64,000 bases of DNA from Anadara kagoshimensis. Taxonomy: Eukaryota; Mollusca; Bivalvia; Arcoida; Arcidae. Within the stretch, counting starts at the first letter, position 1. Each line of letters starts with the position of its first letter. The notes under the pieces were generated by a model, which saw only the letters and a list, made by a program, of their open reading frames with translations, searched no databases and was not told the origin of the DNA. The stretch lies in contig CM037869.1 of assembly GCA_021292105.1 (NCBI GenBank), forward strand, positions 50,520,234 to 50,584,233. Reading direction: 5' to 3'. Made by a program: the position numbers and the translations under genes. Positions 3,353 through 47,853 of the stretch are shown in pieces.

Positions 3353-3360
3353 TTGGTCCG

Positions 3361-3410
3361 AGCACTTTAGATTGTTGATTATTTTATTCGGAAACGACTG
3401 TCAAGTGCTG
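3361..3410 (+). ncRNA. Decayed type I hammerhead-ribozyme-like sequence
   Basis: AGCACTT (3361-3367) and AAGTGCT (3403-3409) are perfectly complementary and take the place of stem I. GGAAAC and GACTGTC precede the predicted cleavage point. The CTGATGA core is degenerate here, so activity is unlikely. See the copies at 11756 and 37556. Confidence 0.5.
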
Positions 3411-3829
3411 CAAAATTAAAACATGATGAGTAATCAATATATACAAAGTTTTCCACACAACTGTTTAGAAGAAAAAATAAATATGATAAAAATACACAAA
3501 AGGAGAGAAAAAATATATGTTATAGATAAAAGGAATGAAGAAAACTGATTCAGTTGAAAACACAACATTTTATATTTATTTGCTGATAAAAAATAAAATA
3601 ACATTGAAAGGATATATGATAAATAAATTAATTGAAAAATGTATATATCTGGTAATGCATTCCATTTATATTAAAAACAAGAGGCCCATGGGCCTGATAC
3701 GCTCACCTGATAACTAATGGCTAGCTGATAGATTTAAAGAAAACATAAATACTAAACCCCAATGACTTTTTTCTTTACATCATGATAACCATTGTATCAA
3801 TACCTACAACATTCTAATATACATGACTA

Positions 3830-5010
3830 TACAAAAAGTTAATAGTTTTCAAGATAATTAACCATTTTAGTATTGTTTCACATCTGTGACCTCGACCTTT
3901 GAACCCATGACCTTTTCTATATATCAAAATGATCGTTGTATCGATACCTACAACATTCTAATATACATGCCTATACAAAAAGTTTATAGTTTTCGAGATA
4001 ATAAAACATTTCGGTATTGTTTCGCATATGTGACCTTGACCTTTGAACCCATGACCTTTTTCTATACATCAAAATGATTGTTGTATCAATACCTACAACA
4101 TTCTAATATACATGCCTATACAAAAAGTTTATAGTTTTCGAGATAATTAACCATTTCAGTATTTTTTCACATCTGTGACCTTGACCTTTAAACCAATTAC
4201 CTTTTTCTTTACATTAAAATGATTGTTGTATCAATACCTACAACATTTTAATATACATGCCTATACAAAAAGTTTATAGTTTTCGAGATAATTAACCATT
4301 TCGGTATTGTTTTGCATCTGTGACCTTGACCTTTGAACCCATGACCTTTTTCTATACATCAAAATGATCGTTGTATCAATACCTACAATATTCTAATATA
4401 CATGCCTATACAAAAAATTTATAGTTTTCGAGATAATTAACCATTTTAGTATTGTTTCACATCTGTGACCTTGACCTTTGAACCCATGACCTTTTTCTAT
4501 ACATCAAAATGATTGTTGTATCAATACTTACAACATACTAATATACATGCCCATACAAAAAGTTTATAGTTTTCGAGATAATAAAACATTTAGGTATTGT
4601 TTCGCATATGTGACCTTGACCTTTGAATCCATGACCTTTCTCTATACATCAAAATGACCGTTGTATCAATACCTACAACATTCTAATATACATGCCTATA
4701 CAAAAAGTTTATAGATTTCGAGATAATTAACCATATCAGTATTGTTTCACATCTGTGACCTTGACCTTTGAACCCATGACCTTTTTCTATACATCAAAAT
4801 GATCTTTGTATCAATACCTACAACATTCTAATATACAAGCCTATACAAAATGTTTATAGTTTTCGAGATAATTAACCATTTCGGTATTGTTTGGCATCTG
4901 TGACCTTGACCTTTAAACCCATGACCTTTTTGTATGCATCAAAATGATCGTTGTATCGATACCTACAACATTCTAATATACATGCCTATACAAAAGTTTA
5001 TAGTTTTCGA
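3830..5010 (+). repeat. 145-bp satellite array inside element copy 1
   Basis: About eight monomers with period 145 (for example the CCTATACAAAAAG start at 3970 and 4115). Each carries TGACCTTGACCTTTGAAC and ATGACCTTT, i.e. AGGTCA half-sites on the opposite strand. Confidence 0.85.
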
Positions 5011-5477
5011 GATAATAATTATAATCAGAGGTAAAAAAAATTAGGTCACGACCTTAACAATTGACCTTGACCTCATTTTGAAGATACTAAGAAGAAGATG
5101 TCAAAACTGAAAACCCCATGTCATTATCTGGTCAAATAGTCAAGTTATAACAATTTGAAGCTATTTTACGATTTTTTTTAAAATTAAACGCAAAAACGCG
5201 TAACCTATTTTTTATCAGAATTTTACAAAATGAACAAACTATAGGCTTAAGACCCTAGAGAAGCCAAATATCACATCAGATTTTTTCTCCAATCAATACT
5301 TTCGGAGAAGAAGATTTTTTAAGATTTTTGAACCTCTAGGTCACCTTGACCTAGTTATGGTAGCCATAGTAACGCCACGAACAAATCTGAATTGCACCGG
5401 CCCATATATACTTCTGACAAAGTTTCATTAAAAACTGTCCACTAGTTTCAGAAAAGAAGTCGAAAATAGGTGTTAAC

Positions 5478-5530
5478 GACGCACACACGCACGCACGCAC
5501 ACACGCACACACGCACGCACATACACACGC
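5478..5530. repeat. GCAC/CACG microsatellite
   Basis: Runs of ACGCAC and ACACGC near the 3' end of satellite element copy 1. Confidence 0.85.
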
Positions 5531-9800: not shown

Positions 9801-12800
9801 GAAAACAAGAAGGTCAGGACAGACTGATGCCTCTTCGAATGTAAAATCTCAATCGTTTTTTGCAAAGGCGGGAATAATAAGCAGTATTTCATTCCAGGCA
9901 ATATACCAAATGACACAGAAGTTCACAATGTGACAGCTTGTTTACGAGACCAAAATGAAGCTTGTTCTTCTAACTTGTCAGTTCCAGTGAAGAAGTGTAA
10001 CGCAGACACCATATTTTACTTGTCACCAACTCCGTCCTGCAACTCATCTTATTGCTTTGGTGAATATAATATAAGAAAATGAGAAGCCTATGATCAAATC
10101 ACAATTTAAAAAAAAATAACTTTGAAACTATCTATATTATTTATCATGTAAAACTGTTCAATTCTTTTATACTTCCAACTGAAAAAGGAAATTAATTTAA
10201 TTTCTTTAATATTGTAATTCTTTACTCTGCTACTGAAAAAAATCGTACACTGATTATGTTCATAATTTAAAATTAATGCAGGTTGATCATATTATATTTG
10301 TTCGATATACCACACAGCTTTTAATATATACTTGGAACAGTAATCGTTTTTGTTTTTAATGCTCTTTTGTTTTTATATGTTTTTAGATCAAGTCGACATG
10401 TCAGGTAAATACACAATAATTATATCACAATTAGTGAATACAATAACAACTCTACTTAAATACATGATAACTCACCATGTTAAAACTTGATAACGTGTTA
10501 TGATATACAAAGACGACTTTAAACAGATGTGCTCCTATAATAAATAAATAATTGTTATTGATATTTAAATTCATACACCAATGAATATATTTACGAATTT
10601 AACTTTAAGTATTGAGACTTTATAACTTAAAAACAGTTTTTTAAAAATCCTTGGTAAAATTAGCTTATTTTTATTTTGAATGTTTTATTTGTAGTTGAAC
10701 TTTTGTGTGTAATAAGTCAGAATTGTTTTGAAATGTTATGAGCAATGAACATTTTTCAAAAAAAAAATCGGAAGTTTCGTAACACTATAGGCGTTTTACA
10801 TTCTAGCTTGACTGCATTTAAAATTTGGTTATATTTCTCTGTATTGTCGGTTGCATATCAAAAACAAATGGACTAATCCATGTCCGAATTACAATCCAAA
10901 AGCAAATTATAAACTTGGGAACTCACAAGTTAGGTTAGACACGTGAACTTCCACCAGGGAAGTGAGGTCGGGTGCTGCGGAAGGGTAAAGGCTTCCTGTT
11001 TAGATAGCTGCACTCGTCACGTGTGTAATCAAAATTGTGTGAAAGGGACATGGACTTATGGAACGTCAAATATATCTTAAGCTATTTAAATTTTTAACTT
11101 CTATATCCCGGTTTGCTTTTCACTTTCACTGTTACACATAGAGCTTTTCCTACGTTAATCATACGTATACAAGAAGGTTTAAAATATAATAAAATTGCTT
11201 AAAATAGAATATAATAGGCATTTGTTTTCCATATCAACAATATATTCGCTCTAAGAACTTTCTATTTTATCCCAATTTTTTTTTACCAGTACCTTTGTAA
11301 AATAATTATATCAATTTTTGTCTTTTTAGATAAAGCTATTACTTGGACACCGTCATCTATGCATATAAATTTCACAATGACATGGACAAATGCTGCAATA
11401 CCTATACCTGGACTAGTCTATAGTTGTAATTTTAGTTTCTCGACTGGTGACCTTTGGTATATGATAAAGTGGTACATCAATGATGTCAAGGTAGCAGAAT
11501 CTGAATTTGTACAGAAAGAGTCCTTCGGTAACACAGAAAACACAACGTTAACAGAGAAATATATAGAGAGATATGGAGTGACGGTAAGTATTCGTATTAG
11601 TTCAAAAAGACACAATAGCTTACAATTCATTAATGGAGAAAATAAAAAAGTTACATTGTTCATATATCATATGTATTACCTCGGCTAAATTTGATAAAAC
11701 ATATTCTGGTCCTTTGATGTCTTTTTAACAATTTTGGTGTCATTATTTCGGTCCAAGCACTACTGATGAATAGTTGTTCCGAAACGGTCGTCTAGTCCCG
11801 TACAATATGTAATCATTTTAACTAAATCTGTTTTAATCTCTCAGCGCCAGACGTCCGTTTCACAATAAAAAAATCCCCATCAGAAGTACTGGAAATAAAA
11901 TGAATGAAATTCAAATATGTTTATGATGAGAAAATAAAAAGACAGTGGGGGTCATAATTCAGGCTTAAATCTAAATATAAAGCAGAATTAGAGTAAATTG
12001 TCGTATCTTTTATTTTAATCTCACTAGGATAGATAATATTCTCATAATCACATTTTGATTGGAATCCTTAAGGTGCTTGACGAAATAACCAGAATCTCTG
12101 TTCAGCAACAGATATTTATATCTTGGCTTACAGTTATATCAAAAAGTTAAATGCTACATTCATTATATATTACTATATTTCAGATAAAGTGTTCAGTGAC
12201 TGCAGCATACAGTACAATAAGCCCTCCTGGTGTCGAGACTAAAAGTCCAGGATTTTATGCCGGAATGAAGGTAATACATTATTGACTGAAGCATTTTTTG
12301 GAAAAGGATTTCATTGCCATTCTTGGGAACACGTCCTCATTTTTATGGTGGACGATCACGTGTAAGACTTAATGTGTCAGTGTTAAAGGTTTAACTTTCA
12401 TTTAAATTGTGAATTTGACATAGATCGGTATGATTGTTTATGATTATGAAATATAAAAAACAAAACACACTTATCCATGTGCGAATTATATTTGATCTTA
12501 ATTTAAAATTTGAAAATATAAACACACGTCTTGACTCACACTTCAATTTTTAGATTTTGCAAACCATATATAGTAATTGCATTTGAATAATGTTTTGTAC
12601 AATTGTTGGTTTAAACAAAACGGGAATCATTTTGTTTCTTTTAAAGGGAAACTAAAACATTATACGCCGATAATGCATGGCAGGAATATGCATTTGTTTT
12701 CATTGACCTAGTTAGATAGAAAGCTTTTCCAACAGATAACAGTTAATATTATTGTGCAACACTATTTTTTGCGATCAAAAACATGTAAGTGTCCACGAAC

Positions 12801-15800
12801 TTTTGTGCATAATCCCGAATAATAACTCACAGTGTTATTTTTATTCCAGCTTCATACACCATCAATCTTTATAGAAAGAGGGAAATCCGGAAATATAATA
12901 ATGGAACCTACTATACCATATGGCTGTCCGAAATACTCTAACGTTTGTAAGACTAGAATTTTAATGACCGATCCTCAGACCAGGAATGAATGCGACCAAT
13001 CAGAAATAAGCACTCAGAATGACAGATGTGGCCTGGAGATGGAAGGAGGGTTTATTTCAAACACAGAATGGTTTTCTAACGAACTTTGGAGAAAGAACTA
13101 CACACTTGGCATTAAACATACAGAGGCAAATCAGAATTATAACCTACACAAGACATCATACGTATTAGAGCTGCAATTCGAAAAACAGTCAATTCCTATC
13201 CATTCGACATGGGCATTGTCTCACTTAGACAATGTTGTGGTAAATAATAATACCTTGTATTTCTGCGTATTTCTGTGTATTGCAATATTGATAAAAAGGA
13301 AAACAGTTTATTTGTAAATAAAGACCAACTATTTAAATCAGTATTATTTCTATGTTGATATATACACATATAAAATAAGATAACAAGTCAATTACAGATG
13401 TTTTTCATGGTCTCATATGTTGTTTGAAAGAAATAATGTTTCATATAGAGAAGTCGAAAGAATGTTTAAGTTGTCTTTGGATTGACAGTCACTTGATTTT
13501 ATGAGAGAAAAAAATCTTATATATAGTACATGTTCGTCTAATTGCATTTATCAGTGGAATAAATATGTGATTTAATATATGTCTGTATTTAAGGTAAATG
13601 TCTATACCAGTGAAACATGGATGAATAAGAAGTGTTATGCTGTTATTGACCCACATATGATGACATTCGATGGAAGGTTATTTATTATTTTATTCTTTTA
13701 TTGATTCAATACGTAACCATTTAAAATGTTAAATATTTACAATATGACTGTATCACTTTTCGATGAAACATACAGAAGCAATTGTAATTCCAGTTGAAAG
13801 ACAATAGGGGTCATGACCCTTGATGTGTATCAATTTCTCGAAACATTAAGTTATGTCCCGCACAGGGGGTCACGTGATCATGAGATACGCCAATCTCACA
13901 TGGCTTAAAACCCTATACCACAGGGGCAGATATTGAAAAAATAGCGCCAAGGTATAAAATATTTATTAAAAGAAAAAATTGAAATACATGTATAAGAAAT
14001 GAAGGCCTCGTGCCACACTGTCTTTCATTACCCTTGAAATTCCATGATCAGAATGTCATTTCTTAATTGAAGTGGTGTAACAGGTTCTTACTCCTAAACC
14101 AAAATTCATTAGCTTATATTGAGGCGGTTGATTCTAGAATAGTGGACAAAGCGGAATACATGGCGAGGAAAGTACTAAAAATCTACTGGACTTTGTGAGA
14201 AGAGTTTTAATAGGTTACTAAGTCCCTTTGGACTATTAGACATAAACCAGATACTTATATTTTCTAAGCTTAAGCAATATTCACGAGTAAACAATGTATC
14301 GGTTAACAACGTGCTTAGATGTACAAGTATGCGGCCAGGTAGTTGTAATAAATAATAATAAAACTCACTTTTAAATTTTAATACCAAGCAAAACTGTCTT
14401 ATCTTTTATCCAATGCTCAAGAATATGGAATAAAGAATTTCATTGCGAAACAGTCGTTTTGTGTTGCAAAATCAAAACAACTGTTATATGTAATAAATAT
14501 GGCATTCACATATACTCCAGATTTAAAATATGTCATGAATCATGGTACATGTATTAACAAATGATATGTTTACATACTGAAGTTTACAAATTTTAAATTT
14601 TACATTTTAGACCTTATGAGATGCAAATGGAAGGTACATTCCTGTTTTATAAACATACAGAACGCAATGCTACTGTAAGTATTTTGGGTGATGTTCTTTT
14701 TACACTCATATGCGAATGTTATGGTAATCGAAAACAAACGAACTAATCCATGTCCGAATCACAATTCTATCCTAATACTTACAAGTTTCTAATTCACTGA
14801 GATAATATTTGAAGAAAATGTACCACAAAATGAGAAACAAATATATTTCATCACTAGTAACTTTTTGTATGTTGCAGTTTCAGATAGATGTTTAGTGTAT
14901 TAATGTGTTAAAATTTGGACGTGCATGATATTGAATAACTTGATCGAAAAAATTTACGAATAAGGCGGAACATAAAAACAAATTTAAATAGACAATACAA
15001 TAAACATGATCCGTTTTGCATAGATAAATTAGGGACTGTTTTAAGTTTCTTCTTTTTCTTGAGACAACTGATGGTTAAACTAAAACAGCACCCTACATTA
15101 TATGCTTTAAAGGCTCAGTGGTTAATCATTTGACTCGAGAACTGGGGTTTGGGGTTAAAAACCTCGGGGGGATAATATATAAAACTTTAAGATGTGTGAT
15201 ACTGATTCCTCGCCTGACTCTCCTTGGCAAATTTACGAACCCACCAGCGCGCGATAATATTAGGCATACACCTCCGATAATTTGTACTGCTAAAGGCATT
15301 AATTGTCGTATAGCTATAGAATTGCTGATGCTATGGCACAACGATTATACAAATGAAACATTCATTAAATAGAAACTTGTTTTGAATAAAACAGGTAATT
15401 ATAAAGACAACATCCTGTTGGAGTCCAAGAATATTTTGTATTTGCGGAATAGTGGTACAAGCAGGGAGGGATGTATTTATAATAAACACCTGCCCGGGAT
15501 CAATACCACTGATGAGATTCTATAGATGTAACGAAGGTTTACTGAGGGTGTATTCCCATGGAGAACACTTATACAAGGTATGATATTTTATAATATTGAT
15601 TATTAATTGTCTACTTTATCTAAATTATTCGAAATTTATTGTAAACTTTTTATCGCTGAAACAAATATAACATCGAATTGGAAAATATATTTATTTATTC
15701 TGAAACGGAAGAAGAATAAAAAACATGTAACTGATCTCAGCGTACTGCTCTAACTTGATTTTTTGTTCCAAATGTTCTTAAAATCGTTAGATATTTTACA

Positions 15801-18800
15801 AAGTACGCTCTAAAATAAAGTATCAATGGTGTTATTTTTTCAATTTAATAACTTGTTCCAAATGATGGTTATATATAGGTTCAAATACCATGAATAAAAT
15901 AAATTGGAATTAAAGTTTACTCGCCTTTAAAATCAGCTGGCACGTATATACAGGTGACATTTTAGGCAAGTTGGACTACATTTTTGTATCTGTTTAAGAT
16001 TGCAAAATGATACTATTAGTGTTGTTGAATAATATGTTGTTAATCATATTGTGTTGTTGAATAATATATTGTTAATTGACAGTGATTGGTGACTAATATA
16101 GAATTTAGCAAAACTTTCTCTCAAGACAGACTCATACGTAGTTTCATATCGAGACTTGATATATTTATAGTCGAAATATCGTTCACTTATTTAATCGGAT
16201 TCATTTGCGTCTACTAGTAGTTGTTGTTTTATTCTATCAGGCATGCACAGTTTTTAAACTTAAAAAAAGTTAACTATTATTAAAGTCTGAGTAAGAGATA
16301 TGAAGATAATATCACTTTAGACTTTTGAACGAGTTTAGATGATTTATGGGTTAAACTTCACTTTGCTAGACAGATGCTACATAAATATTACAATTTACTT
16401 TAGATCTATTTACCGACTGGAACACGGGTAGAGGCTCATTTACGAAACTACAACACAAAATATTGGGACGTTTATATCTACCCCACAAATATTGATGTTG
16501 GGAATACTACAGGATTATGTGGAACACTTGACGGTTTTTGTGATAACGACTTTGTATTGAGAGATGGAAGTTATAGCACTACTGTAGGAGCTGCTAACCC
16601 TTGTTACGTACGAAATGGCTGGGTCTGGTATCCTAACGACTTTTCAAATAGTTGGAGGTATTTTTATTAATGCACTGCAGGGTATGGTATCCGAATGAAT
16701 TTTTAAATAGATGGATGTATTTTCAACAATAAAATGCTAACGTAGTATTTCGTTTTCAAAGTACTTTCATTTGTTTACAAAGCTTATAGGCGTTTTGAAC
16801 CTAACTTGTATACAACAAAATTAATTGTTTAATTTATTTGCCTTACATAAAAAATCTGCTATGCGTATTATTGTTAGAGATACATTTCATGTCAAATACC
16901 AATTGAAATTTTTTGAGCATTACGGAAATCGTTTGTAATGAAGTATGAGCAATGTTTTGTATTTAAACTGAATACTTTAAATCAATTTCTAGGGTCACAG
17001 ATGATGAAAACTTGTTCCCAGGTCCAAATTTTGACAATGTATATAATGCATTAAGTCCATGGTCAGCATCTCTTCAGTTATGTTATTGTCCGTATAACAG
17101 CCTGGAAAACCATATAAACACAGGTGGACTAGTTAATGAAGCACATTGCAGTTATAAGGAATACGCGGATTGCAATTATGATCCTGGAAGGGAGACAATT
17201 TGCCGCCATCTTCAACAATCTTCACTAAGAAGAAAAAGGGATACTATGTTTAATTCGTATGGTACTTCAAAACCACTAAACACAAAATATCTGCAAAAGG
17301 TAAGTATCATTTGCTGAGTGAATCAGGTCCAATGCATTGGCCATGCTGGAAAATACAAACGTAACAACATAACACAATGATCCTGCTCTAAGTCATTATC
17401 CTAAAGGACAGTAAAACTGCACACTAAATAACGCAGGTATCATTCTACCTGGGAGGTGAGGCTGGACGGTCCGAAATGGTAATCACCACCTGTCTATGTC
17501 TTATTCAATTTTTGTAAGTACATGTTGCTGTATTTTAAAATATAGTTTAAAAAAACTTATTATGATCAAAATAGGCGAATGTTTTTTTTTTTCATTTTTT
17601 TACTTTCTATACTTCTTACTAGAAATACCCGTGTGTCAAGATCTAATGTTAAAATGATTAACTGTTGTACTGAGAATATTTGTATAAGAATAAACAAGTC
17701 GTATTTGGTGAATTTCAATATGGAATAAAACATAGATTGGAACAGTTTCGTATAGTGTATTCATGATGGTGATGCTTACGGTTATTTCAAATGTTTTGAG
17801 TTGACTTACATTAAAAAATTTAGTGGGTAAAGACATTACAAAAATAATTATAATTATAATTAATTACAGCGATCAACAACAATGTCAACAGCTGATGCCA
17901 CAACTACTTGTAACACAGTATTTAACGAATCGGTGACATATCAAAGGTGTTTAGATCTGGATTTGGTAGATGAGGGAGTACTTCAACTTTGTGTTCAAGA
18001 TCTAGTGGTACGTGCGTTTACATTTACAGATTATTAGGTATTTTTTCGGAAACGGCCGTCTAGTGCTGCGAAACTACAACAGACTTAATCATGAGTTAAT
18101 TAGACGTTTAGCTTAAAAAAACCCAGAAAAATAAATGAGACCACAATTTATATTATTTGTCAGAAGTAATAGTGATACAGTTGGGTTTGGATTTCGGGAT
18201 AGTCTCAGGTTTCTCTTAAAGGCAAACATAACACTTCGTTTTTCCAATTTATTTTTATTTACTGATATGTTTATGACCACACACATTTCCATCGTATTCC
18301 ATTTTTCAATCCACATATAAAAACCAAAAATTGTACATATTCTTCTTCACTATTCTTTTAACCATGACCAATACCCAACTAAAATATCACATTCCCACCC
18401 CTTATATATGTTTCAAAAACGCCAACTCATCCATTCTTACACACCTATCATACACTTCATGAAAACTCATTCACATTCACCCCAGTTAAAAGACACCACA
18501 TCAGCACAGATACTGAACTTGTTTATCACACTTGTATTAAGGACAATATATAAAACATGGACTGAACACTGGATCTATGGTAATACATATAATATGGAAT
18601 GGACACTTAATGAATATACAATTTCTTGTTTTTAAAACAAATTAAACAAAAATATTATGTACACTGTAACACATCCCCCCTCATAAGAACTGACGCAGTC
18701 TGTTAAAAAAACTACAGTGGACATCGAGACAAAATGTCTGCACCAAGATTTCTTATTCCGGCAATGGAAAGGGTACGAAACTTGAACTGCTGTAAAAACA

Positions 18801-21800
18801 TAAATCATCGAGCAATACGCGAATTTTTGAAACGAGCTGTATTAAAATAAATCAAAGGCTTATGATTAGTCTCCAAAACAAAGCAACGGCCATAAAGATA
18901 TTTAGAAAGTTTGTCAACTGCCCAAACAATACCAAGACATTCCTTTTCCATGATGGAATAGTTGCATTCCCTGTCTAGTAATTTGCGACTAATGTAACAG
19001 ACTGTGTGGTAAAGACCTTTGTGATCCTGTAACAGAACAGCACCTATACCTTTGTTTGAAGCATCTGTCCTAAGAATAAATTATGGAAAATCATGCAGAA
19101 TGAAAACAAAATAGTTAAAAAACAAATAAAAACAAATAATTTAATGCTTAAACTATTTTGTTGACGTTGTTTTTCTAGGCAACTAGTGATATTTCCGTTG
19201 CATATTCCCATCGAGAACGAGCTAAATCTGAATGTGCGGATGTACTCACCAGGAATGACACCCTCCGACAAGAATATCCTGATATGGTGACTGTAATTGA
19301 AGCCAACAATTGTCCAAATGAGTGCAGTAATCACGGAACATGTGTAGCAGGTATCTGTTATATCATTTCAAACGCGGGGGATGTACCTAGCTTATGGAAG
19401 GTGCTTACCAGGCCTAGCTTCTCTGGTGGAAGTTCAACAAAATTTCTCCGCTATAATTAGTTTGACATGGTGATTGGTCATGATTGGCATTATATTTGTT
19501 GAAACATTGTATATATATACGTGTATATTGAGACCGTAGAACGTTAGTATAAGAAATACACTTGCAACGTTCGTAAATCTCACGTCAAGAACAATTATCG
19601 ATTCTTCGAACCGGTGGCGGTTTTCTGTTTACAGTTTTTTTTATTTTCCATTAAGGATGAAGAATCCTCCTGCATTCTACAATTGCGTTTTGAAATTTAA
19701 ATGGAAATGTAAAATAGGTTTTGATTGAATATAAATAAAGAACGTTTATCTTTTTGTCTGTTTAAATAAATACTACTTTTGAAAGCTTGAAAAATTATGC
19801 GATTCGCGGCGAGTGAGTCAATGTTGTTTATCACCTCATAAAAAACTAAACTAATTTGCAAATAAAAGAGCAGTTTAGATGTTATTGTGGCCTTAATTGT
19901 GATTATTATATAAAAAACACAGAAATCTCATACAAATATATCCATTTTTGTTAAATAAGGAAACTGCACGTGTGAGAACGGATTTGCTGCAAGAGATTGT
20001 TCGATGAATTTAACGGCAGGGATAAATATTAATGGGAATTCAGAAAATGGATTTTGTGATACATCGGATGGTTCGTGTACAGAGATAGAAGTATACGGGG
20101 ATCCATTTCCAGAGGACATACGTCCAGTGTCACGTTTTACTCCATTTACGCAGGTAATGCTGCTAAAGTCCTTATATTTCTATATTTTTTTATATTACTC
20201 TTCATTTTAAATTTTCAATAACATGGTAAATTTTAAAAGTATTTCGAAATGTAACAACGATTTCACGAAGTTGCCTTATAAATGCATCTTAGTAAACGAC
20301 TACTTTAAATGCAATTGATATATTTACTACTAGGTTATGAAATAAACTTCAAATATTTTACTCTTTATAATCTATAATGTCACCATGTTTTCATGATCTG
20401 TGTAAAAATTACGGATCTACGATTAGTTGTTTCTTAGTTTAAATTTGTATTGAAAAACATCTTACTACTACAAAATTTAAAAGTTATCTTCATCTATTTA
20501 TATTCAAGGGTATACAAAATGGAACACAGACATTTTATTCACCAGTGCAAACAACAGGAGAACAACAAAGTAGATTTTCTGCGATTTTTAACTACCCGTC
20601 AACAACAAGCTGGCCAAAGCCTGTTCCAAGCAATGCTTCATTTGTACATGGCTACACATTTGCTGTTTCACTTGATGGAAGCATTTTCAGTGAAGAAATC
20701 CTAGTATATATACATGATTCTAAATGTCAATTTTACCGAGGTGCAGGCGGCTCTGTAGTATTTTCCTTGAAAGTAAGTACGTACAGAAGTATGGATGAAA
20801 TATCTGAATTGCTTAGTTGTTTGAGAAATATTAAAATTTTATAAGTAGATACTTTTGATTTATAATGTTTATCTGACAATAATTTTATAGACCCCCTTTC
20901 GGTTATCTATATCGTCGTTTAGTATGTGTCCAGTTATAAATATTAAAAAAAACCACGTATTTTTAGTGTTCATAATTACTGCATCCGTGTTTTTTTCATT
21001 CACAATTTTGAAATATCACCTGAAAGATAGCTATCTGAATAGGAGATGTTATGTATATCGCAAGCCTATGATTATAATTACAATCAAAAAAGTTTTATGG
21101 CCGTCATCACAATATTGTTGATTAGTTTGATGTGTATGTGTCCAGGATTGTGGTAAAAAATTAATGTTTAACATACTTTGTCAGTTTCAAAGTCTCAACT
21201 TGGGTTTGAAATTGTGCTTTGGACATAAATAAGATCATGTTTTTGATCAAAATAGATGTCATATAGATTGCGATTTGTTTCCAATTTGGCCCTTAATTTA
21301 AGTTTAGCCATAAAAAGCATGGTTCACTGCTATATATGATTTTTTATTGAGACGAATTTTCTTGTATATTTTAAATTTCAGAAAGGGTATTGTTTTATTA
21401 ATGGGGCATGTATATCTAATGGAACTGTTAATCCGTCTCAAACCTGCCAGTATTGCAATGCGGCTAAAAAGAAGTTTGAATGGTCATACTTAGCAAGTAG
21501 GTTTATAAGATTTTGTCGTTAAGTCATATAGTGATGATTTACTTCTCTTATATTATTACATTCCACACAAAACATTATTTTTATTACTTTTCCATTGTTT
21601 TGGTTAACCTTCCTGTGCTCCCGGTCTCAATTCCCTTGTGGAAACCCATGCGTTTAATTTAATTAACTAGTTTTAATTTTTTTTTACTTTGGTTTGGGAT
21701 TGTAATGAGGACATGGACTGATATGTCTGTTATAAATGTACATGGCACAGTACTTAACTTAAGATGGAACACATGCCTTTGCATCCATCACAAGCAGCAT

Positions 21801-25863: not shown

Positions 25864-27450
25864 TGGGCCCATGGGCCTTAACGCTCACCTGAGGACGAGT
25901 ACATATCTCATGCAGAAGTTCAATGCTCAAGGCCATTAATTAAAGAGATGTCCAGATTTTTTTAGCAGTAAGAGCCATTTATATGCAAGGATTTATGCCA
26001 ATTTATTATAGTTTGTCCTAAGAATGCTACATATAACATATCTTAAGTCTATCTCCATTTTTTAAACAGAATCTTTATATCAAATTGAACATTAGGCCAA
26101 TACCTACAATATTCTATCATACATGTCTATTTGTATGCTTGCATTTGTTTGCACCTGTAAGCATGACCTTCATCTATATATCAAAATGATCGCTAGGCCA
26201 ATGCCTACAATATTCCAATATATATGCCTATACAAAAGTTTATAGTTTTTGAGTTAATTAAACATTTCAGTATTCGTTTGCACCTGAGACCTTGAACTTC
26301 GAACTTATGACCTTTATTTATATATCAAATGATCTTTAAGCCAATACCTACAATATATTGATATCCATTCTTATACAAAATGTTTATAGTTTTTGAGATA
26401 ATTTACCTTTTCAGTTTTCGTTTGCATCTCTGACTTTGACCTTTGAACTTATAACCTTCATTTATATATCAAATTAATGGTTGTGCAAATGCTATTTTTT
26501 TGTTTTTGAGATAATTAACCATTTAAGTACATGTACTCGTCCCCATCTATGACCTTAACCTTTGAACCCATGACCCTCATTCAAATACCAAAATGCCTGT
26601 TAGGCCAATACCTACAATATTCTAATATATATACACAAAGTATGTAATGTTTGAGATAAATAATCATTTTAGTACTCGTTTCATCTATGACCTTGACCTT
26701 TGAACTAATGCCCTTTATTCATATATCAAAATGACCATTGTTTCATTACCTACAATATTGTAATACGAATGCCTATACAAAAAGTTAAAAGTACGCATAT
26801 AATCAACTATTTTGGTATATTTGTGCGTTTGTGACCTTGACCTTTGAACCCATGACCTTGATGTATGTATCAAAATGAGAGTCATGTCAATACCTACAAT
26901 TAATTTAAAATCCAATGCCATAAACACCTCAAATGTTTAAGAAATAGCATTTTTATTTAAGGTCAAAAACTGGGATATGACCTCGACCTTTGACCTTGAC
27001 ATCTAATGGAAGAAAATAGGAAGACAAGACCAACAGTGAAAACTCCATACAATTATCTATAGCTGTTATTGAGTTATAACAATATATAATACATAATTTT
27101 ACGCAAAAATGCGTGACCTATTTTTCAAAAATTTGCATAAAAAACACAATTTTAATGTTCCCAGGTATCCTGAATCCAAATATCCAATCAAAATTTGCCT
27201 GCACTTTTTGGTTTCAGAGAAAAAGATTTTTTTTTGTCTTTTGGTTATTTCTTGTATCGGCGGTCATCGTGTTGGTCGTGGCAAAACCCGGAACACAATT
27301 TTGAAAGCCTGTTACCAAGGCATGATATTCATCAAGTTTCTACAAATTTGGCCCAGTAGTTTTTGAGGAGAATATTTATGAAAAATTGTTAATGGACGGC
27401 AGATGACGACGACGACGCACGCCAATTGATGGCAATAGTCCATGTGAGCT
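25864..27450 (+). mobile_element. Satellite-bearing element, copy 2
   Basis: 5' end GGGCCCATGGGCC then GCTCACCTGA; 3' end CATGTGAGCT with a worn hairpin. Inside is a decayed array (about six monomers, 26090-26940), then the 3' block shared with copy 3 (GTTCCCAGGTAT at 27159 and 45261). It sits at an AAT-rich site whose counterpart at 345-395 lacks the element. Confidence 0.7.
26090..26940 (+). repeat. Degenerate 145-bp satellite array in copy 2
   Basis: About six monomers with TGACCTTGACCTTTGAAC or variants. It is the most diverged of the three arrays, so probably the oldest insertion. Confidence 0.75.
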
Positions 27451-28485: not shown

Positions 28486-29659
28486 ACTTTAGGATAAATT
28501 TGGAATGTGTATGATATTTTACAGTGGTGATTGATGGCAAAAGGAAAAATGGAGTAGAATCGATTTTAAATTCAGGTAATATATTTAAAGTAATATGATT
28601 TTTAAAACTTTATTTACCGAACCTTTTTTGGATCTACTTCCCTTAATATGCGATCAATTGCAAACTGTCTATAAAGTATTTAAGACCATTATGAGACGCT
28701 GAATTGAAACAGAAATACCAGTAACGCAGCAGTCTTGGAGAATGACTTAATTGAGTAATTTGTAGGTCCTACACCTAAGTATAAATTCTTGTTTGAAAAT
28801 TTGCCAGTGTATTTAGTTTTATGCAGTCTCTGCAATCGTTATGATATCCCCACGCTAAAGAAATGTAAAAATCTGAACTTAGCATACAAACAAGGTTTTG
28901 AATCCGTCACATATGTCAAGTGCGTATATCTGAATTTTTGTATTTTAATATGCTTGAATCTAGCACGGGTAACATAGAGAAAATATATGCCATGCCATAA
29001 TAGGTGACATTAGCATTTTTACAACATAAGAGTGTTAAAAATACTTAATATAGTATATGACAACTTAAAACTATGTAATCACATGTGTACGTCGATTGAA
29101 TCATAAACATCTAATCGCATTACAAGTATGTCGCCATTGTTGACTAAGTACGTGTTTGCCGTTTAATAAGTGGATTCTCTTAATTAGCTACACTAAATAA
29201 GAGGAATCTTAATCTGGAACGGCCTTCTACTTCTGTATAATTAAAATAAGATGTTATAATATTAAACTTTTTTCGGATACATCAGTTAATAATTAAATTT
29301 TAATACTATACAGTGTTGTAATTTTTTGTATCTATGATCCCATAGACAGAATTTTTTGACGTCATATTAGCTGAAAATGTTCATGAAAAGCTAGCTACCG
29401 GCGGTTGCCATTCGCAATCAGCTGTGTTCCGCTTTTAGATTAATGCGCCATTTTTTGTTTTAATGCGCTGGTTTTTTGTTTTATGTGTATATTATGTGTA
29501 TAATTTAAAGATTACATGAATGTTATGAATATTAAACTTATTTTTGAATTTAATTATTTGCGGTTTTATGCCGCAAGCACCAAATAATTTTGTCTATGAC
29601 CCTATAGATAGAAAAAATTACATCATTCCTTAATAAAATATACTAAGTTTTTATTTCAG
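28486..29659. promoter_or_regulatory. Upstream region of gene 2
   Basis: It should contain the promoter and an untranslated exon, because the coding start directly follows a splice acceptor. No TATA box or exon could be fixed. TGACGTCA-like and CAGCTG words occur near 29357 and 29420 but are not diagnostic. Confidence 0.3.
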
Positions 29660-30713: not shown

Positions 30714-33700
30714 ATACATGTAAATAAATAAATAAAAGCATTTATTTTCTGGAATTTTTCTGTCTATAACACTTGTTTGTTTTTGAACAGATCCTTGCCA
30801 TGGTTATATTATGATGTTATCTAATGGAAGCCGTACAGAAAATTGCCCGGATGTTCAGTTCAGTAATTGCGATGCTTACATCTCATCTGGTTGGTACAGG
30901 ACTGACATACCAATGTTAAACCACTGTCCGACTAGTGGACTTGGATTTAGCTGTGGCACTACGTTCCCTGCCTGGATGAACGGTAGAGTAAAAACGACCA
31001 ATATCTGATTTAATTAAGCCACTTTCAACAGCATTTTTTTCAATATGATTGCCTATTTTGTCAGGACAGATGGGTGTAATCCGTGAATATGCTTGAGTAG
31101 AAAAATGCATGCTAACTTTAATGATAAAAAAATATAACTCATATATTTCAATTTGTCATAAGTAAACATTTCTTTATAATAAACTGTCGAACGTAAGATT
31201 CGAGTCACACTCCTACTGTTAGCAACGGAATAGATCTGTTGTCGAGGGTAAATGGTTTTCCTACGTTTACTGTAATTTCTTGCCTAACTCTATATGAACG
31301 AGTTTAATCGTTAAACATTATTACTTAAGTCCACCTCATATAAATAACATTTATATTTCAGATTTCTTTGAATTTTATGTAATTGAATACATTGGTTGAT
31401 ATATTACTTCAAATAAATACGGGAGATGATTACTCTTGGTGCAAAAAAGTTAGAAGACACAAATGAAGAATACTGTTATATTCATTATTGAGTATGTGAA
31501 TATGTATTGAGAATAAGGAAATTGCGAAGCATCCGGCCTCTCTTTCCCGGTGGAAGTTCACGTGTCTTGCTTGAGTTGTCAGTTCAAAAGTTTTTGCTTT
31601 GCTTCTGGATTGTGATTCGGGCATAAGTTGAGAATGTTTTTTTATATTCATTATTTAGTGTGTATTAAAATTTACATTTTAGGAACTACTCCAACGGTAG
31701 GTGATGGAATTGTTAATAGAGATGTTTGTCTTAAAGGTCCTACAAGTTGCTGTGTTAAGATCTACGCAATCCAAGTTAAAAACTGTTCTAATTTTATGGC
31801 ATACTGTCTTCGGCCTTTAGGCAGCTGTCCAGAGAGATACTGTTTCGGTACGTGTGTTTTTTTTATTAATTACAATAAATATATATTTCTCTACTTGGAC
31901 TTTGTACAACAAAGTAGACTGCTTGCAAATAAATTGTAGAATTAGGGATATTGCAAACCTAGGCTTATCTAGGACCTCAAAAAGTTTTATGGCCGTCATC
32001 ACAGTGTTGTGGATAAGTTTGATGTTTCTGTGTCCAAGATTGCCATTGAAACATTTGACGTCCCATAGTTCCATGTTCCTTTCAGACAATTTTGATTACA
32101 CACGTGACGGGTGTAGTTAGTTAAACAGGAGGCTTATTCTTCCGGAGCACCCGGTCTTATTTCCTTGGTGGAAGTCCACGTGTCTAACCTCACTTGTCAG
32201 TCCAAAGTTTTTTTCTTTGCTTCTTTATTGTGATTCAGACATTGAATAGTATGTTTGTTTTTGATTGATTACATAATTTTGTTCTTCAGGTACAGTTGGT
32301 TCCTGCTTATCTACAACCATCGCCACAACTACCACGCCTATTTCCTCAACTTCACAAAGTAAAACAGAATTGCATGTAACTAGTATAGAAACTCACCGAA
32401 ATGCATCTTATGGTATGTTAAATAATTAGGACTTCATATATGATAAACAAGAATGTCCTTTGTTTCAATCAATGCTTTTCATTTTATGAGCGAGTTCATT
32501 AGGTCATTAAAAGTCATAGGGGCGATGTATAGGCTGAAATCACGTAAGTTAAAAGTAAAACATGGGTGAAGATAAAATTGTCTTTCAAATAGATAATTAT
32601 GTTAATATCTCTTTGCTTAACATATCGGACAAAAAGTACATGTTTATAGAGACAACTATCAAATGATGTTAATTTCTATAAGTTTTGTAAAGGTTTTATA
32701 AACTTTCTCTATAACTACTATATATCAGTGTATATGGACTATAGATTGGGTTAAATATATGTTCAGTTGTGTTTACAAAGGATTGTCAGTGCATCTGAAG
32801 ACAATAAAATAACAATAACGAAAACAAAAACCAACAACATAAATTAAACATCGACTTTAAAACTACTGAACTTTTTGGACTATCTGTCATAAAAAGATCT
32901 GCCTAGCGGTTTAGTTGTTATTTTATTTGCATTGAGACTTCAACCTTTATAACATAACTAAAATAAACGAATCTACAAAGTTTTGTATTTTGTCATAATT
33001 GTCATTTGTCTGTTATTTATGTATAAAAATGCAAATTAATATATTTTATTTCGCAGAAGGAAGTTCTAATAGTGACATTACCGGTTCTTATAATGATAAA
33101 TTGATATTAGGGATAATTGGAGCAATATTAGTTATAGCTGTACCTGTAATTATAATTATAATTATAAATCTTCTCAGACAAATCAAGTAAGTGGTATTAT
33201 CACCAATTATCTTGTTATTTTACTTCTGTTAATATAACAATATAAGATAAGCTGTTTGCTGTTTACAAATAAATTGTTAATATAGGGACATTGACAGCCT
33301 ATGCTTATCAGGGTCCTAAAAAATTTCATTGCATTCATTAAACAATTGATGATAGGTATAATGTCCCTGTGTTCAGGGTTGTGCTAATATCTTTGACATT
33401 TCATAGTCCCATGTTCCTTTTATTCCCAATTTGACTACACGCGTGGTTTAACAGAAGGTGCTTACTCTTCCGGAACACCCGACCTCACTTCTCTGGTGGA
33501 ATTCATGTGATTAACCCGAATTGTCAATTTGAAAAATTTTAATTTACATCGGGATTATGATTTGGACATGGATTAGTATGTTTGCTTTTGATAATGTAAT
33601 AACTTATTTCATATTCACATTTAGCGGTGTTATGTATCTTTTCCTCAGTATATGAATTTACGTATTGGCGGCCAGGCCCACAATGTTCCGACAAAGGCCG

Positions 33701-37535: not shown

Positions 37536-37555
37536 GATTAAATAATTTTGGTTCA

Positions 37556-37601
37556 AGCACTACTGATGAGAAATTGAATTCCAAAACGGCTGTCTAGTGC
37601 T
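37556..37601 (+). ncRNA. Type I hammerhead-like ribozyme with perfect stem I
   Basis: AGCACTA (37556-37562) pairs fully with TAGTGCT (37595-37601). CTGATGA (37563-37569) is intact, a 3-bp stem II forms (GAA/TTC), and GTC at 37592-37594 is the predicted cleavage triplet. The G of the GAAA box is A here (CAAAAC). That position (G12) is the general base, so this copy should be inactive. It lies between genes 2 and 3. Confidence 0.6.
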
Positions 37602-38089
37602 GCAAAATTAAAACTGGTATAATATGCAATATGCAGGAATGACGTCATATTGCTACTTATTGTTGTATTAAGGTGAAAAGGTAATTAACCAGTCACAGTT
37701 GTACCTAAAGTCCAACCAAAGTAGCCTGCTTTTATTGACAGATGGGCCTTATATAGAGGTTGCATTAACTAAATTTTTAATTTGGATTACCTTTTACTAC
37801 CCTTTAAAAGTAGTTGGCCTTAATATAGAGGTGATCTAAAAGGCAGGTTTGAGACTATTTGTCTGGTAGTAGCACATTATCTGTTCTGTTTTGGCAAATA
37901 TTCGTATACGTTTAAAATTAATGAATCAGTATGAAAATTAGAAATGTTAAAAAATGAAATCTGTAAAGAAAAACTTCATTCACATTGAAATATCACTGTT
38001 ATGCATAGATTATTGATTGTATTGGCATCTAAAAGTACATGTAGTGACCATTTATAACAAATGAGCACGAAATATATATTTTTATACAC

Positions 38090-39832: not shown

Positions 39833-40079
39833 AACAAGAGGCCCATGGGCCTTAACGCTCACCTGAAGAAGAGTACATATCTTATGCAGAGGTTCAATAT
39901 TCAATGACATTAATAAAAGAGAATATCAAAATTTTAAGCAGTAAGGGCCAATAATATGCAAGTATTTTTGCAAAATAATTATAATAATTATTATATAAGT
40001 ATGCTATATATAACAAATTTAAAGTCTAGCTACAATATATTATTTATAAACAGCTAAAACACGTGTATATTAAAATGTA

Positions 40080-43000
40080 CATTAGGCCAATACCTACAAT
40101 ATTCCAATATACATGCCTATAAAAAGAGTTTATAGTTTTTGAGATAATTAACCATTTAAGTATTCGTTTGCGTCTATGACCTTGACCTTTGAACCTATGA
40201 CCTTCATTCATATATCAAAATGATTGTTGTGCAAATGCCTACAATATTCCAATGTACACGCCTATACAAAAAGTTTATAGTTTTTGAGATAATTAACCAT
40301 TTAAGTATTCATTTGCATCTATGACCTTGACCTTTGAACCTATGACCTTCATTCATATATTAAAATGATCGATAGGCCAATACCTTTAATATTCTAATAT
40401 ACATGCCTATACAAAAAGTTTATAGTTTCTGAGATAATTGACCATTTAAGTATTAGTTTGCATCTATAACCTTGACCTTTGAACCTATGAACTTCATTCA
40501 TATATCAAACTGATTGTTGTGCTAATGCCTACAATATTCTAATATACATGTCTATACAAAAAGTTTATAGTTTTTGAGATAATTAACCATTTAAATATTC
40601 GTTCGAAGCTATGACCTTGACCTTTGGACCTATGACCTTCATTCATATATCAAAATGATCGTTAGGCCAATACCTACAATATTCCAATATACATGCCTAT
40701 ACAAAAAGTTTATAGTTTTTGAGATAATTAACCATTTAAGTAGTCGTTCACGTCTATGACCTTGACCTTTAAACCTATGACCTTCATTCAATTATCAAAA
40801 TGATCGTTAGGCAAATACATACCTTATTCCATTATACATGCCTATACAAAAAGTTTATAGTTTTTTTAGATAATTAACCATTTAAGTATTCATTTGCATC
40901 TATAACCTTGACCTTTGAACCTATGACCTTCATTCATATATCAAAATGATCGTTTGGCTAATACCTACAATATTCCAATATACTTGCCTATACAAAAAGT
41001 TTATAGTTTTTTAGATAATTAACCATTTAAGTATTCGTTCACGTCTATGACCTTGACCTTTGAACCTATGACCTTCATTCAATTATCAAAATGATCGTTA
41101 GGCCAATACATACCTTATTCCATTATACATGCCTATACAAAAAGTTTATAGTTTCTGAGATAATTGACCATTTAAGTATTAGTTTGCATCTATGACCTTG
41201 ACCTTTGAACCTATGAACTTCATTCATATATGAAAATGATTGTTGTGCAAATGCCTACAATATTCTAATATACATGCCTATACAAAAAGTTTATAGTTTT
41301 TGAGATAATTAACCATTTTAATATTCGTTCGCAGCTATGACCTTGACCTTTGGACCTATGACCTTCATTCATATATCAAAATGATTGTTAGGCCAATACC
41401 TACAATATTCCAATATACATGCCTATACAAAAAGTTTATAGTTTTTGAGATAATTAACCATTTAAGTATTCGTTCACGTCTATGACCTTGACATTTGAAC
41501 CTATGACCTTCATTCAATTATCAAAATGATCGTTAGGCCAATACATACCTTATTCCATTATACATGCCTATACAAAAAGTTTATAGTTTCTGAGATAATT
41601 GACCATTTAAGTATTAGTTTGCATCTATGACCTTGACCTTTGAACCTATGAACTTCATTCATATATCAAAATGATTGCTGTGCAAATGCCTACAATATTC
41701 TAATATACATGCCTATACAAAAAGTTTATAGTTTTTGAGATAATTAATCATTTAAATATTCGTTCGGAGCTATGACCTTGACCTTTGGACCTATGACCTT
41801 CATTCATATATCAAAATGATCGTTAGGCCAATACCTACAATATTCCAATATACATGCCTATACAAAAAGTTTATAGTTTTTGAGATAATTAACCATTTAA
41901 GTAGTCGTTCACGTCTATGACCTTGACCTTTGAACCTATGACCTTCATTCATATATTAAAATGATCGATAGGCCAATACCTACAATATTCTAATATACAT
42001 GCCTATACAAAAAGTTTATAGTTTCTGAGATAATTGACCATTTAAGTATTAGTTTGCATCTATGATCTTGACCTTTGAACCTATGAACTTCATTCATATA
42101 TCAAAATGATTGTTGTGCAAATGCCTACAATATTCTAATATACATGCTTATACAAAAAGTTTATAGTTTTTGAGATAATTAACCATTTAAGTATTTGTTC
42201 GCGTCTATGACCTTGACCTTTGAACCTATGACCTTTATCTGTATATCAAAATTATCGTTAGGCCAATACCTACAATATTCCAATATACATGCCTATACAA
42301 AAAGTTTATAGTTTCTGAGATAATTGACCATTTAAGTATTAGTTTGCATCTATGATCTTGACCTTTGAACCTATGAACTTCATTCATATATCAAAATGAT
42401 TGTTGTGCAAATGCCTACAATATTCTAATATACATGCTTATACAAAAAGTTTATAGTTTTTGAGATAATTAACCATTTAAGTATTTGTTCGCGTCTATGA
42501 CCTTGACCTTTGAACCTATGACCTTTATCTGTATATCAAAATTATCGTTAGGCCAATACCTACAATATTCCAATATACATGCCTATACAAAAAGGTTATA
42601 GTTTTTGAGATAATTAACCATTTAAGTATTCATTTGCATCTATGACCTTGACCTTTGAACCTATGACCTTCATTCAATTATCAAAATGATCGTTAGGCCA
42701 ATACATACCTTATTCCATTATACATGCCTATACAAAAAGTTTATAGTTTCTGAGATAATTGACCATTTAAGTATTAGTTTGCATCTATGACCTTGACCTT
42801 TGAACCTATGAACTTCATTCATATATGAAAATGATTGTTGTGAAAATGCCTACAATATTCTAATATACATGCCTATACAAAAAGTTTATAGTTTTTGAGA
42901 TAATTAACCATTTTAATATTCGTTCGCAGCTATGACCTTGACCTTTGGACCTATGACCTTCATTCATATATCAAAATGATTGTTAGGCCAATACCTACAA

Positions 43001-44990
43001 TATTCCAATATACATGCCTATACAAAAGTTTATAGTTTTTGAGATAATTAACCATTTAAGTATTCGTTCACGTCTATGACCTTGACATTTGAACCTATGA
43101 CCTTCATTCAATTATCAAAATGATCGTTAGGCCAATACATACCTTATTCCATTATACATGCCTATACAAAAAGTTTATAGTTTCTGAGATAATTGACCAT
43201 TTAAGTATTAGTTTGCATCTATGACCTTGACCTTTGAACCTATGAACTTCATTCATATATCAAAATGATTGCTGTGCAAATGCCTACAATATTCTAATAT
43301 ACATGCCTATACAAAAAGTTTATAGTTTTTGAGATAATTAATCATTTAAATATTCGTTCGAGCTATGACCTTGACCTTTGGACCTATGACCTTCATTCAT
43401 ATATCAAAATGATCGTTAGGCCAATACCTACAATATTCCAATATACATGCCTATACAAAAGTTTATAGTTTTTGAGATAATTAACCATTTAAGTAGTCGT
43501 TCACGTCTATGACCTTGACCTTTGAACCTATGACCTTCATTCAATTATCAAAATGATCGTAAGGCCAATACATACCTTATTCTATATACATGCCTATACA
43601 AAAAGTTTATAGTTTTTAGATAATTAACCATTTAAGTATTCATTTGCATCTATAACCTTGACCTTTGAACCTATGACCTTCATTCATATAAGGACAATAA
43701 ATACCTTATTCCAATATACATGCCTATACAAAGAGTTTATAGTTTTTGAGATAATTAACCATTTAAGTATTTGCATCTATGACCTTGACCTTTGAACCTA
43801 TGACCTTCATTCATATATTAAAATGATCGATAGGCCAATACCTACAATATTCTAATATACATGCCTATACAAAAAGTTTATAGTTTCTGAGATAATTGAC
43901 CATTTAAGTATTAGTTTGCATCTATGATCTTGACCTTTGAACCTATGAACTTCATTCATATATCAAAATGATTGTTGTGCAAATGCCTACAATATTCTAA
44001 TATACATGCTTATACAAAAGTTTATAGTTTTTGAGATAATTAACCATTTAAGTATTTGTTCGCGTCTATGACCTTGACCTTTGAACCTATGACCTTTATC
44101 TATATCAAAATTATCGTTAGGCCAATACCTACAATATTCCAATATACATGCCTATACAAAAAGTTTATAGTTTCTGAGATAATTGACCATTTAAGTATTA
44201 GTTTGCATCTATGATCTTGACCTTTGAACCTATGAACTTCATTCATATATCAAAATGATTGTTGTGCAAATGCCTACAATATTCTAATATACATGCTTAT
44301 ACAAAAAGTTTATAGTTTTTGAGATAATTAACCATTTAAGTATTTGTTCGCGTCTATGACCTTGACCTTTGAACCTATGACCTTTATCTGTATATCAAAA
44401 TTATCGTTAGGCCAATACCTACAATATTCCAATATACATGCCTATACAAAAAGGTTATAGTTTTTGAGATAATTAACCATTTAAGTATTCATTTGCATCT
44501 ATGACCTTGACCTTTGAACCTATGACCTTCATTCATATATTAAAATGATCGATAGGCCAATACCTACAATATTCTAATATACATGCCTATACAAAAAGTT
44601 TATAATTTCTGAGATAATTGACCATTTAAGTATTAGTTTGCATCTATGACCTATGACCTTCATTCATATATCAAAATGATCGTTAGGCCAATACCTACAA
44701 TATTCCAATATACATGCCTATACAAAAAGTTTATAGTTTTTGAGATAATTAACCATTTAAGTATTTGTTCGCGTCTATGACCTTGACCTTTGAACCTATG
44801 ACCTTTATCTATATATCAAAATTATTGTTAGGCCAATACCTACAATATTCCAATATACATGCCTATACAAAAAGTTTATAGTTTTTGAGATAATTAACCA
44901 TTGAAATATTTGTTCACAGCTATGACCTTGACCTTTGAACCCATGAACCTGATCTATGTATCAAAATGATCATCATGTCAATACCTACAA
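40080..44990 (+). repeat. 145-bp satellite array with higher-order structure
   Basis: About 34 monomers. Each has GTTTATAGTTTTTGAGATAA, ACCATTTAAGTATT, TGACCTTGACCTTTGAACC, TATGACCTTCATT and CAATACCTACAATATTC. Variants (TTCTGAGATAATTGACC; TATGATCTTG) recur at fixed distances of about 1.6-1.86 kb, showing block duplication inside the array. Confidence 0.9.
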
Positions 44991-47474: not shown

Positions 47475-47853
47475 AATACGGGGACTTTGTACAACGAAGT
47501 AGGCTGTTTGCAAATAAATTGTTGACTCAGGGATATTGGAAGCTTAGGCTTATCAAGGCCCTCAAAACGTTTTATAGCCGTCATCAAGGTATTGTTGATA
47601 AGTTTGATGTCTCTGTGTCAAAGATTGCCCTGGATATATTTGATGTCATAGTTCGATGTTCCTTTCACACAATTTTGATTACACACGTGACGGGTGTAGC
47701 TACCTAAACATGAGGTGCTTACCCTTCCGGATCACCCGGCCTTACTTCCCTAGTGAAAGTTCACGTGTCTAACCTAACTTGGTAGTTCCAAAGTTGTTAC
47801 TTTGCTTCTGGGCTGTGATTCGGACATGGATTAGTATGTTTGTTTTTTATTTT
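47475..47853 (+). repeat. Family A full-length copy
   Basis: GGGGACTTTGTACAACGAAG to GGATTAGTATGTTTG. One of the best-preserved copies and a good reference for the family. Confidence 0.85.

Follow-up and report, generated by a model that had tools for sequence, protein, structure and literature searches.

A hammerhead-type dispersed repeat, probably a decayed ribozyme, in a predicted intron of the bivalve Anadara kagoshimensis

Minimal type I hammerhead ribozymes are described as dispersed in animal genomes and as part of the pseudo-LTRs of Penelope-like elements (PMC7761336, PMC11167929). Their role in these elements is given as still unknown in one report (PMC7761336), and for one Penelope-like element the other states that cleavage needed the protein and was unnecessary for insertion in vitro (PMC11167929). 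For Mytilus galloprovincialis, two hammerhead families without most of the loop-loop contacts are described in a further report (PMC7229834). In a stretch of 64,000 nucleotides from Anadara kagoshimensis (contig CM037869.1; hereafter the window), a hammerhead-type motif in a predicted intron (copy a) is best read as real, but as a relic of a known kind, namely the minimal type I hammerheads of animal retroelements.

The motif is located at 11756-11799 on the plus strand, with an implied cut site at 11792/11793, directly after GTC; both can be read directly from the sequence, as the earlier note had claimed. It consists of the 5' strand of stem I (AGCACTA, 11756-11762), an intact core CTGATGA (11763-11769, also found by pattern search), stem-loop II ATAGTTGTTCC (11770-11780), the stretch 11781-11792 with GAAA (11781-11784), C (11785), the loop GGTC (11786-11789) and GTC (11790-11792), and the 3' strand of stem I (TAGTCCC, 11793-11799; TAGTGCT in the family consensus according to the alignment). 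Stem III has two pairs. In stem I, TAGT (11793-11796) forms pairs with the four bases next to the core; beyond these come a C/C mismatch, a G-C pair and an A/C mismatch, so that only four pairs are contiguous. The two-pair stem III and the mispaired distal stem I of the earlier note are thus both seen in copy a. In addition, both core-proximal pairs of stem II are gone (A11770/C11780 and T11771/C11779) and only A-T and G-T remain. The order of parts is that of type I (CUGANGA, GAAA and a UH cut site in sequence, with stem I open). A complete set of three helices is not formed because the core-proximal pairs of stem II are absent, and 9 of the 13 designated pairs form. In cmsearch, copy a spans 11750-11812 (plus).

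The intron that holds the motif is predicted at 11584-12183 (plus) from open frames on both sides and GT...AG borders (GTAAGT at 11584; ...ATTTCAG ending at 12183), in agreement with the intronic location assumed before. No Pfam match was found for the flanking exons. Nearby fragments on the plus strand matched VWD at 21.8 bits, just below the cut-off, and EGF, also below it, and a minus-strand fragment matched VWD at 27.1 bits, above the cut-off, which points to two putative VWD/EGF-type genes in opposite orientation. Similar exon-like stretches (ENLFP...CYC) are also present on opposite strands at 16967-17314 (plus) and 55195-55554 (minus), and this pair suggests that VWD/EGF-type genes were duplicated in inverted orientation. 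For the exons flanking the hammerhead intron, no second copy was found in the window.

The pattern CTGATGA-N(3-33)-GAAAC-N(3-33)-GTC matched only copy a in the window, against an expectation of 0.04, and four of 100 shuffles contained one match. A stricter descriptor, in which the core had to be accompanied by a stem I of 4 bp or more and a stem III of 2 bp, was applied to both strands of the window and again copy a was the sole match. Since 16 of 300 shuffled windows also gave at least one match to this descriptor, copy a in isolation is weak evidence and could be a chance occurrence. Folding of the short motif alone was not better than that of shuffles (z -0.11, -0.07, 0.53 and 0.79).

Rfam was also used. 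No hammerhead was found in the whole window at gathering thresholds, nor in 11600-11950 with E-values up to 10, where only one snoRNA model and one microRNA model appeared, both far below gathering. As a control, six IMG/VR viral contigs (L001-L006) with textbook-like type I hammerheads and an identical stem I were scanned. None of the six hammerheads reached gathering scores, and when L001 was rescanned by E-value the best match was RAGATH-1 with 20.4 bits (threshold 56.3). Because the control hammerheads miss gathering too, the Rfam silence was not counted as evidence. The earlier note had named two observations that would together speak against the motif: absence of a covariance-model match and absence of similar family copies. 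The Rfam match is indeed absent, which has little weight after this control, and similar copies were found in the window.

What argues for copy a as a real hammerhead-type repeat is this putative dispersed family. When the intron was compared with the window using blastn, copy b was found at 37542-37598 with 81% identity over 57 nt (E 1e-8 to 2e-9), together with partial matches at 18039, 3377-3423 and 55513-55540 (minus), through which an inverted copy was recognized in copy a's own intron. Profile searches widened the family to eight places in the window. A held-out profile, built from copies b, c, d and e only, was then compared with 50 dinucleotide-shuffled windows, the best of which reached 11.3 bits. 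With this profile copy a scored 28.6 bits (E 6.9e-8); for copy g the score was 20.9 bits (E 1.7e-5). Copies h (9.8 bits) and f (2.6 bits) were below the best shuffle and, as they did not pass this test, they were graded as tentative. By these searches the family in 64 kb would consist of six firm copies (a, b, c, d, e and g) and two tentative ones (h and f), and recognizable copies occur about once per 8-11 kb of the window. A further nhmmer match of the held-out profile, at 25677-25612 on the minus strand, was weak (9.4 bits). Model R1, built from seven copies, gives copy a 63.7 bits, with copy a itself in the model; in the window it added no copy to the seven that form its rows, the next match having 16.3 bits (E 0.14).

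Among these members, copy b (37550-37614, plus; blastn and profile) is the best preserved, with seven of seven stem I pairs and a CTGATGA core, and its GAAA is changed to AAAA. Copy c (3355-3423, plus) has all seven pairs of stem I (AGCACTT/AAGTGCT) and a degraded 5' core (TAGATTG). The 3' half of copy d (18016-18081, plus) is well kept (GGAAACGGCCGTCTAGTGCTGC) and its 5' half is degraded (core CAGATTA). Copy e (11829-11896, minus; core CTGATGG) is the inverted copy that shares the intron with copy a, and copy g (14414-14479, plus) is degraded. Tentative copy h (29187-29248, plus) gave 12.1 bits (E 0.0095) and 9.8 bits (E 0.051) with profiles made without it, and tentative copy f (55508-55533, minus) has the 5' half only (GGTCCAAGCGCTACTTAT). 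The copies within the window support the view of the earlier note that copy a belongs to a hammerhead-type family and is probably degraded; the lost stem II pairs, the inverted copy in the same intron and the further copies elsewhere in the window go beyond that note.

Seven copies (a-e, g and h) were aligned using MAFFT with no structure supplied, and copy f was omitted as truncated. The consensus was nnTnCnAGCACTACnGATGAnnAATTnTATTCnGAAACGGCCGTCTAGTGCTGCAAAATTAAAACA. It can be read as the layout of a type I hammerhead, with a 7-bp stem I (AGCACTA/TAGTGCT), CnGATGA, GAAAC, a GGCC loop and GTC. The perfect 7-bp stem I is absent from copy a alone, and the stem II positions beside the core are given as n. 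When copy a was left out, the 5' half of the six-copy consensus was poorly resolved. The pairing structure examined was read off the consensus itself; it was formed in 76.1% of cells, compared with 28-42% when the partners were slid by 1-3 columns. When the 3' letters were shuffled, 68 of 500 shuffles reached the paired percentage and 14 of 500 the covariation score. The paired percentage is not exceptional against this control, and the pair counts are only partly favourable. Copy c keeps the full stem I despite a change on both sides beside the core (A-U to U-A). RNAalifold predicted no consensus structure on the alignment.

When the copies were extended, alignment between them was confined to stretches of 60 nt or less. 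The 250-bp flanks, compared without the pair a/e because of its shared flank, were no more alike than random window segments (on either side, one of 20 pairs reached the 95% level), and the cores by the same measure gave nine of 21 pairs at the 95% level. As neither the flanks nor the extended alignments show wider likeness, the repeat unit is about 66 nt and comprises the ribozyme with six bases before it and a short A-rich tail after it. The linkage to retroelements proposed in the earlier note is plausible, but no carrier element was found for the copies. Within the window, a retrozyme-sized tandem repeat was not found, that is, no two copies in direct orientation 170-400 bp apart and no shared flanks. 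The Pfam search covered 22 of the 29 stop-to-stop fragments with a length of at least 85 aa, some of them in part, and gave no Penelope-type (telomerase-like) reverse transcriptase or GIY-YIG domain. Exact family patterns found no family copy in viral contigs, where one pattern gave L001-L006, six contigs that look unrelated, and none in prokaryote genome contigs; as these collections contain few animals, the result has no bearing on the range of the family.

Several other repeats were observed in the window. An RNase H fragment of a retrotransposon reverse transcriptase is present at 18808-19080 (minus; PF17917, 1.8e-29), which we take to be of the Ty3-like type by its family. Tandem arrays of a 145-bp repeat are located at 3762-5016, 26163-26474 and 40066-44990 (8.7, 2.2 and 34.2 copies, respectively), and the first of them is followed by an ACGC/AC microsatellite at 5479-5530. 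We regard this layout as presumably reminiscent of bivalve Helitron-type elements. As for a satellite origin, neither copy a nor copy e is inside a tandem array. A dispersed repeat of about 350 bp, unrelated to the hammerhead, has many copies in both orientations with up to 93% identity (10857-11076, 31898-32270, 47477-47851, 51019-51395, 52014-52371, 63165-63404 and others). No tRNA genes were reported in the window.

In the pre-mRNA, copy e is complementary to copy a and lies 30-130 nt downstream. When 11740-11900 was folded, 29 of the 44 bases of copy a paired with copy e, and the same pairs were present in the fold of the whole intron. The fold with the a/e pairing was 3.1 sd better than shuffles (z -3.11), and none of 200 shuffles was as good. 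From these predicted folds, the ribozyme strand, once transcribed, would be masked by copy e, even were copy a able to fold. We take the inverted pair as a by-product of two neighbouring insertions. A ribozyme circle of two polarities arising from this pair was also considered and set aside, as no other copy in the window has such a partner.

The family, its consensus, its limits and the damage in each copy are directly visible. Copy a is the only one of the eight in which CTGATGA, GAAA and GTC are all intact, and the stems are best kept in copy b, where 13 of 14 pairs form. The base changed in copy b (GAAA to AAAA) is G12, the general base (PMC6155905). Altered 5' cores are seen in all the others (c, d, e, g, h and f), and none of the eight keeps both core and stems. 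The hammerhead fold was less favourable than the minimum-energy fold for copy a (+8.0 vs -6.6 kcal/mol), for copy b (-1.0 vs -8.5 kcal/mol) and for a completed consensus, in which the stem II positions beside the core were filled in by hand (-7.8 vs -12.3 kcal/mol). The broken stem II and the half stem I suggest that copy a has probably lost the ability to cleave and is a dead relic. It is probably inert in the intron, with no sign of a function for the host gene or a role as a switch.

Copy a is probably a decayed copy of a short dispersed repeat that descends from a minimal type I hammerhead followed by a short A-rich tail. This ancestor would have been cut after GTC and would have had a 7-bp stem I, a stem II of about 5 bp and a stem III of 2 bp capped by a GGCC-type loop. 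We infer that the ancestral ribozyme was active and served in RNA processing for an active retroelement, which most likely belonged to the Penelope-like/minimal-hammerhead kind, and that copies were reverse-transcribed into the genome and then mutated, with loss of activity in copy a. That the ribozyme itself was the spreading unit, as a 'solo hammerhead' of about 66 nt with a short A-rich tail and no body, seems improbable to us. It is rather unlikely that the copies are the ends or solo remains of a non-LTR retrozyme (a tandem unit of 170-400 bp, as in Mytilus) whose body has diverged, in which case copy a would still be a relic. About 5000 type I hammerheads of two families, in repeats of 350-390 bp, are described for Mytilus galloprovincialis (PMC7229834), but the window has neither a direct-orientation pair at retrozyme spacing nor flanks that are alike above random.

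The likeness to a hammerhead could also be accidental in a short dispersed repeat of another kind, such as a segment of an unknown non-autonomous element. The descriptor matches in about 5% of shuffled windows, RNAalifold gave no structure and the core is broken in all copies but one; however, nearly all core bases appear in the consensus together with the perfect stem I that copy a alone does not have, and copy c carries a compensating stem I change, so we consider an accident quite doubtful. Far less probable still is that copy a is active in the intron, cutting the gene 1 pre-mRNA and influencing its splicing in the way proposed for the conserved intronic hammerheads of amniotes, perhaps with the inverted copy as a gate. 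Copy a does have the one intact core in eight and lies in the sense orientation in an intron, the facing copy e could serve as a lock, and intronic hammerheads are known in amniotes (PMC6155905). Against this, copy a is without two core-proximal stem II pairs and half of stem I, and at about 80% identity between copies one intact core in eight is, by our estimate, unremarkable. The cutting of gene 1 pre-mRNA put forward conditionally in the earlier note is unlikely given the broken stem II, the two-pair stem III and an inverted copy that can mask the strand.

This likely hammerhead family goes largely unnoticed in Rfam and strict motif scans owing to the decay of its copies: the strict descriptor sees one of eight copies (six firm, two tentative) in one window. 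If relics are equally dense elsewhere, ribozyme-bearing elements would have contributed a larger amount of intronic and intergenic DNA than is apparent from counting intact motifs. Should the ribozyme itself have been the spreading unit and the window be typical, estimates of hammerhead-derived DNA from strict searches would be far too low. Unusual here are the missing common body around the ribozyme and how many relics escape a strict search.

Several known systems can be set beside this family. The viral hammerheads of L001-L006 share stem I AGCACTA/TAGTGC and the core with the copies here, but they have a long stem III and a complete stem II, and they were picked by a pattern demanding an AGCACTA-type stem I, so that the likeness was selected and is no evidence of kinship. 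Model R1 found all six among its 10 matches in viral contigs (13.1-18.1 bits, E 0.038-0.75); these were not counted because the six had been picked by the same core and stem I, which makes the comparison circular. The amniote intronic hammerheads RECK, CTCL and DTNB are likewise of type I, intronic and on the sense strand, but they are described as conserved across species (PMC6155905), whereas stem II is broken in copy a, which belongs to a set of several decayed repeats. With the non-LTR retrozymes of mussel, coral and salamander (PMC7229834), the locus shares a type I hammerhead and a low-GC, animal-like genome; those retrozymes have tandem units of about 170-400 bp and circular RNA, whereas here about 66 nt are shared and the copies are single or inverted. 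Penelope-like hammerheads are described without helix III, unlike the copies here with their two-pair stem III and tetraloop, and in the fragments scanned the protein domains of Penelope-like elements were not found beside the copies. What the family has in common with the minimal type I and Penelope-like hammerheads, as these are described, is the type I order, a very weak stem III, dispersed non-coding copies and the absence of a retrozyme body.
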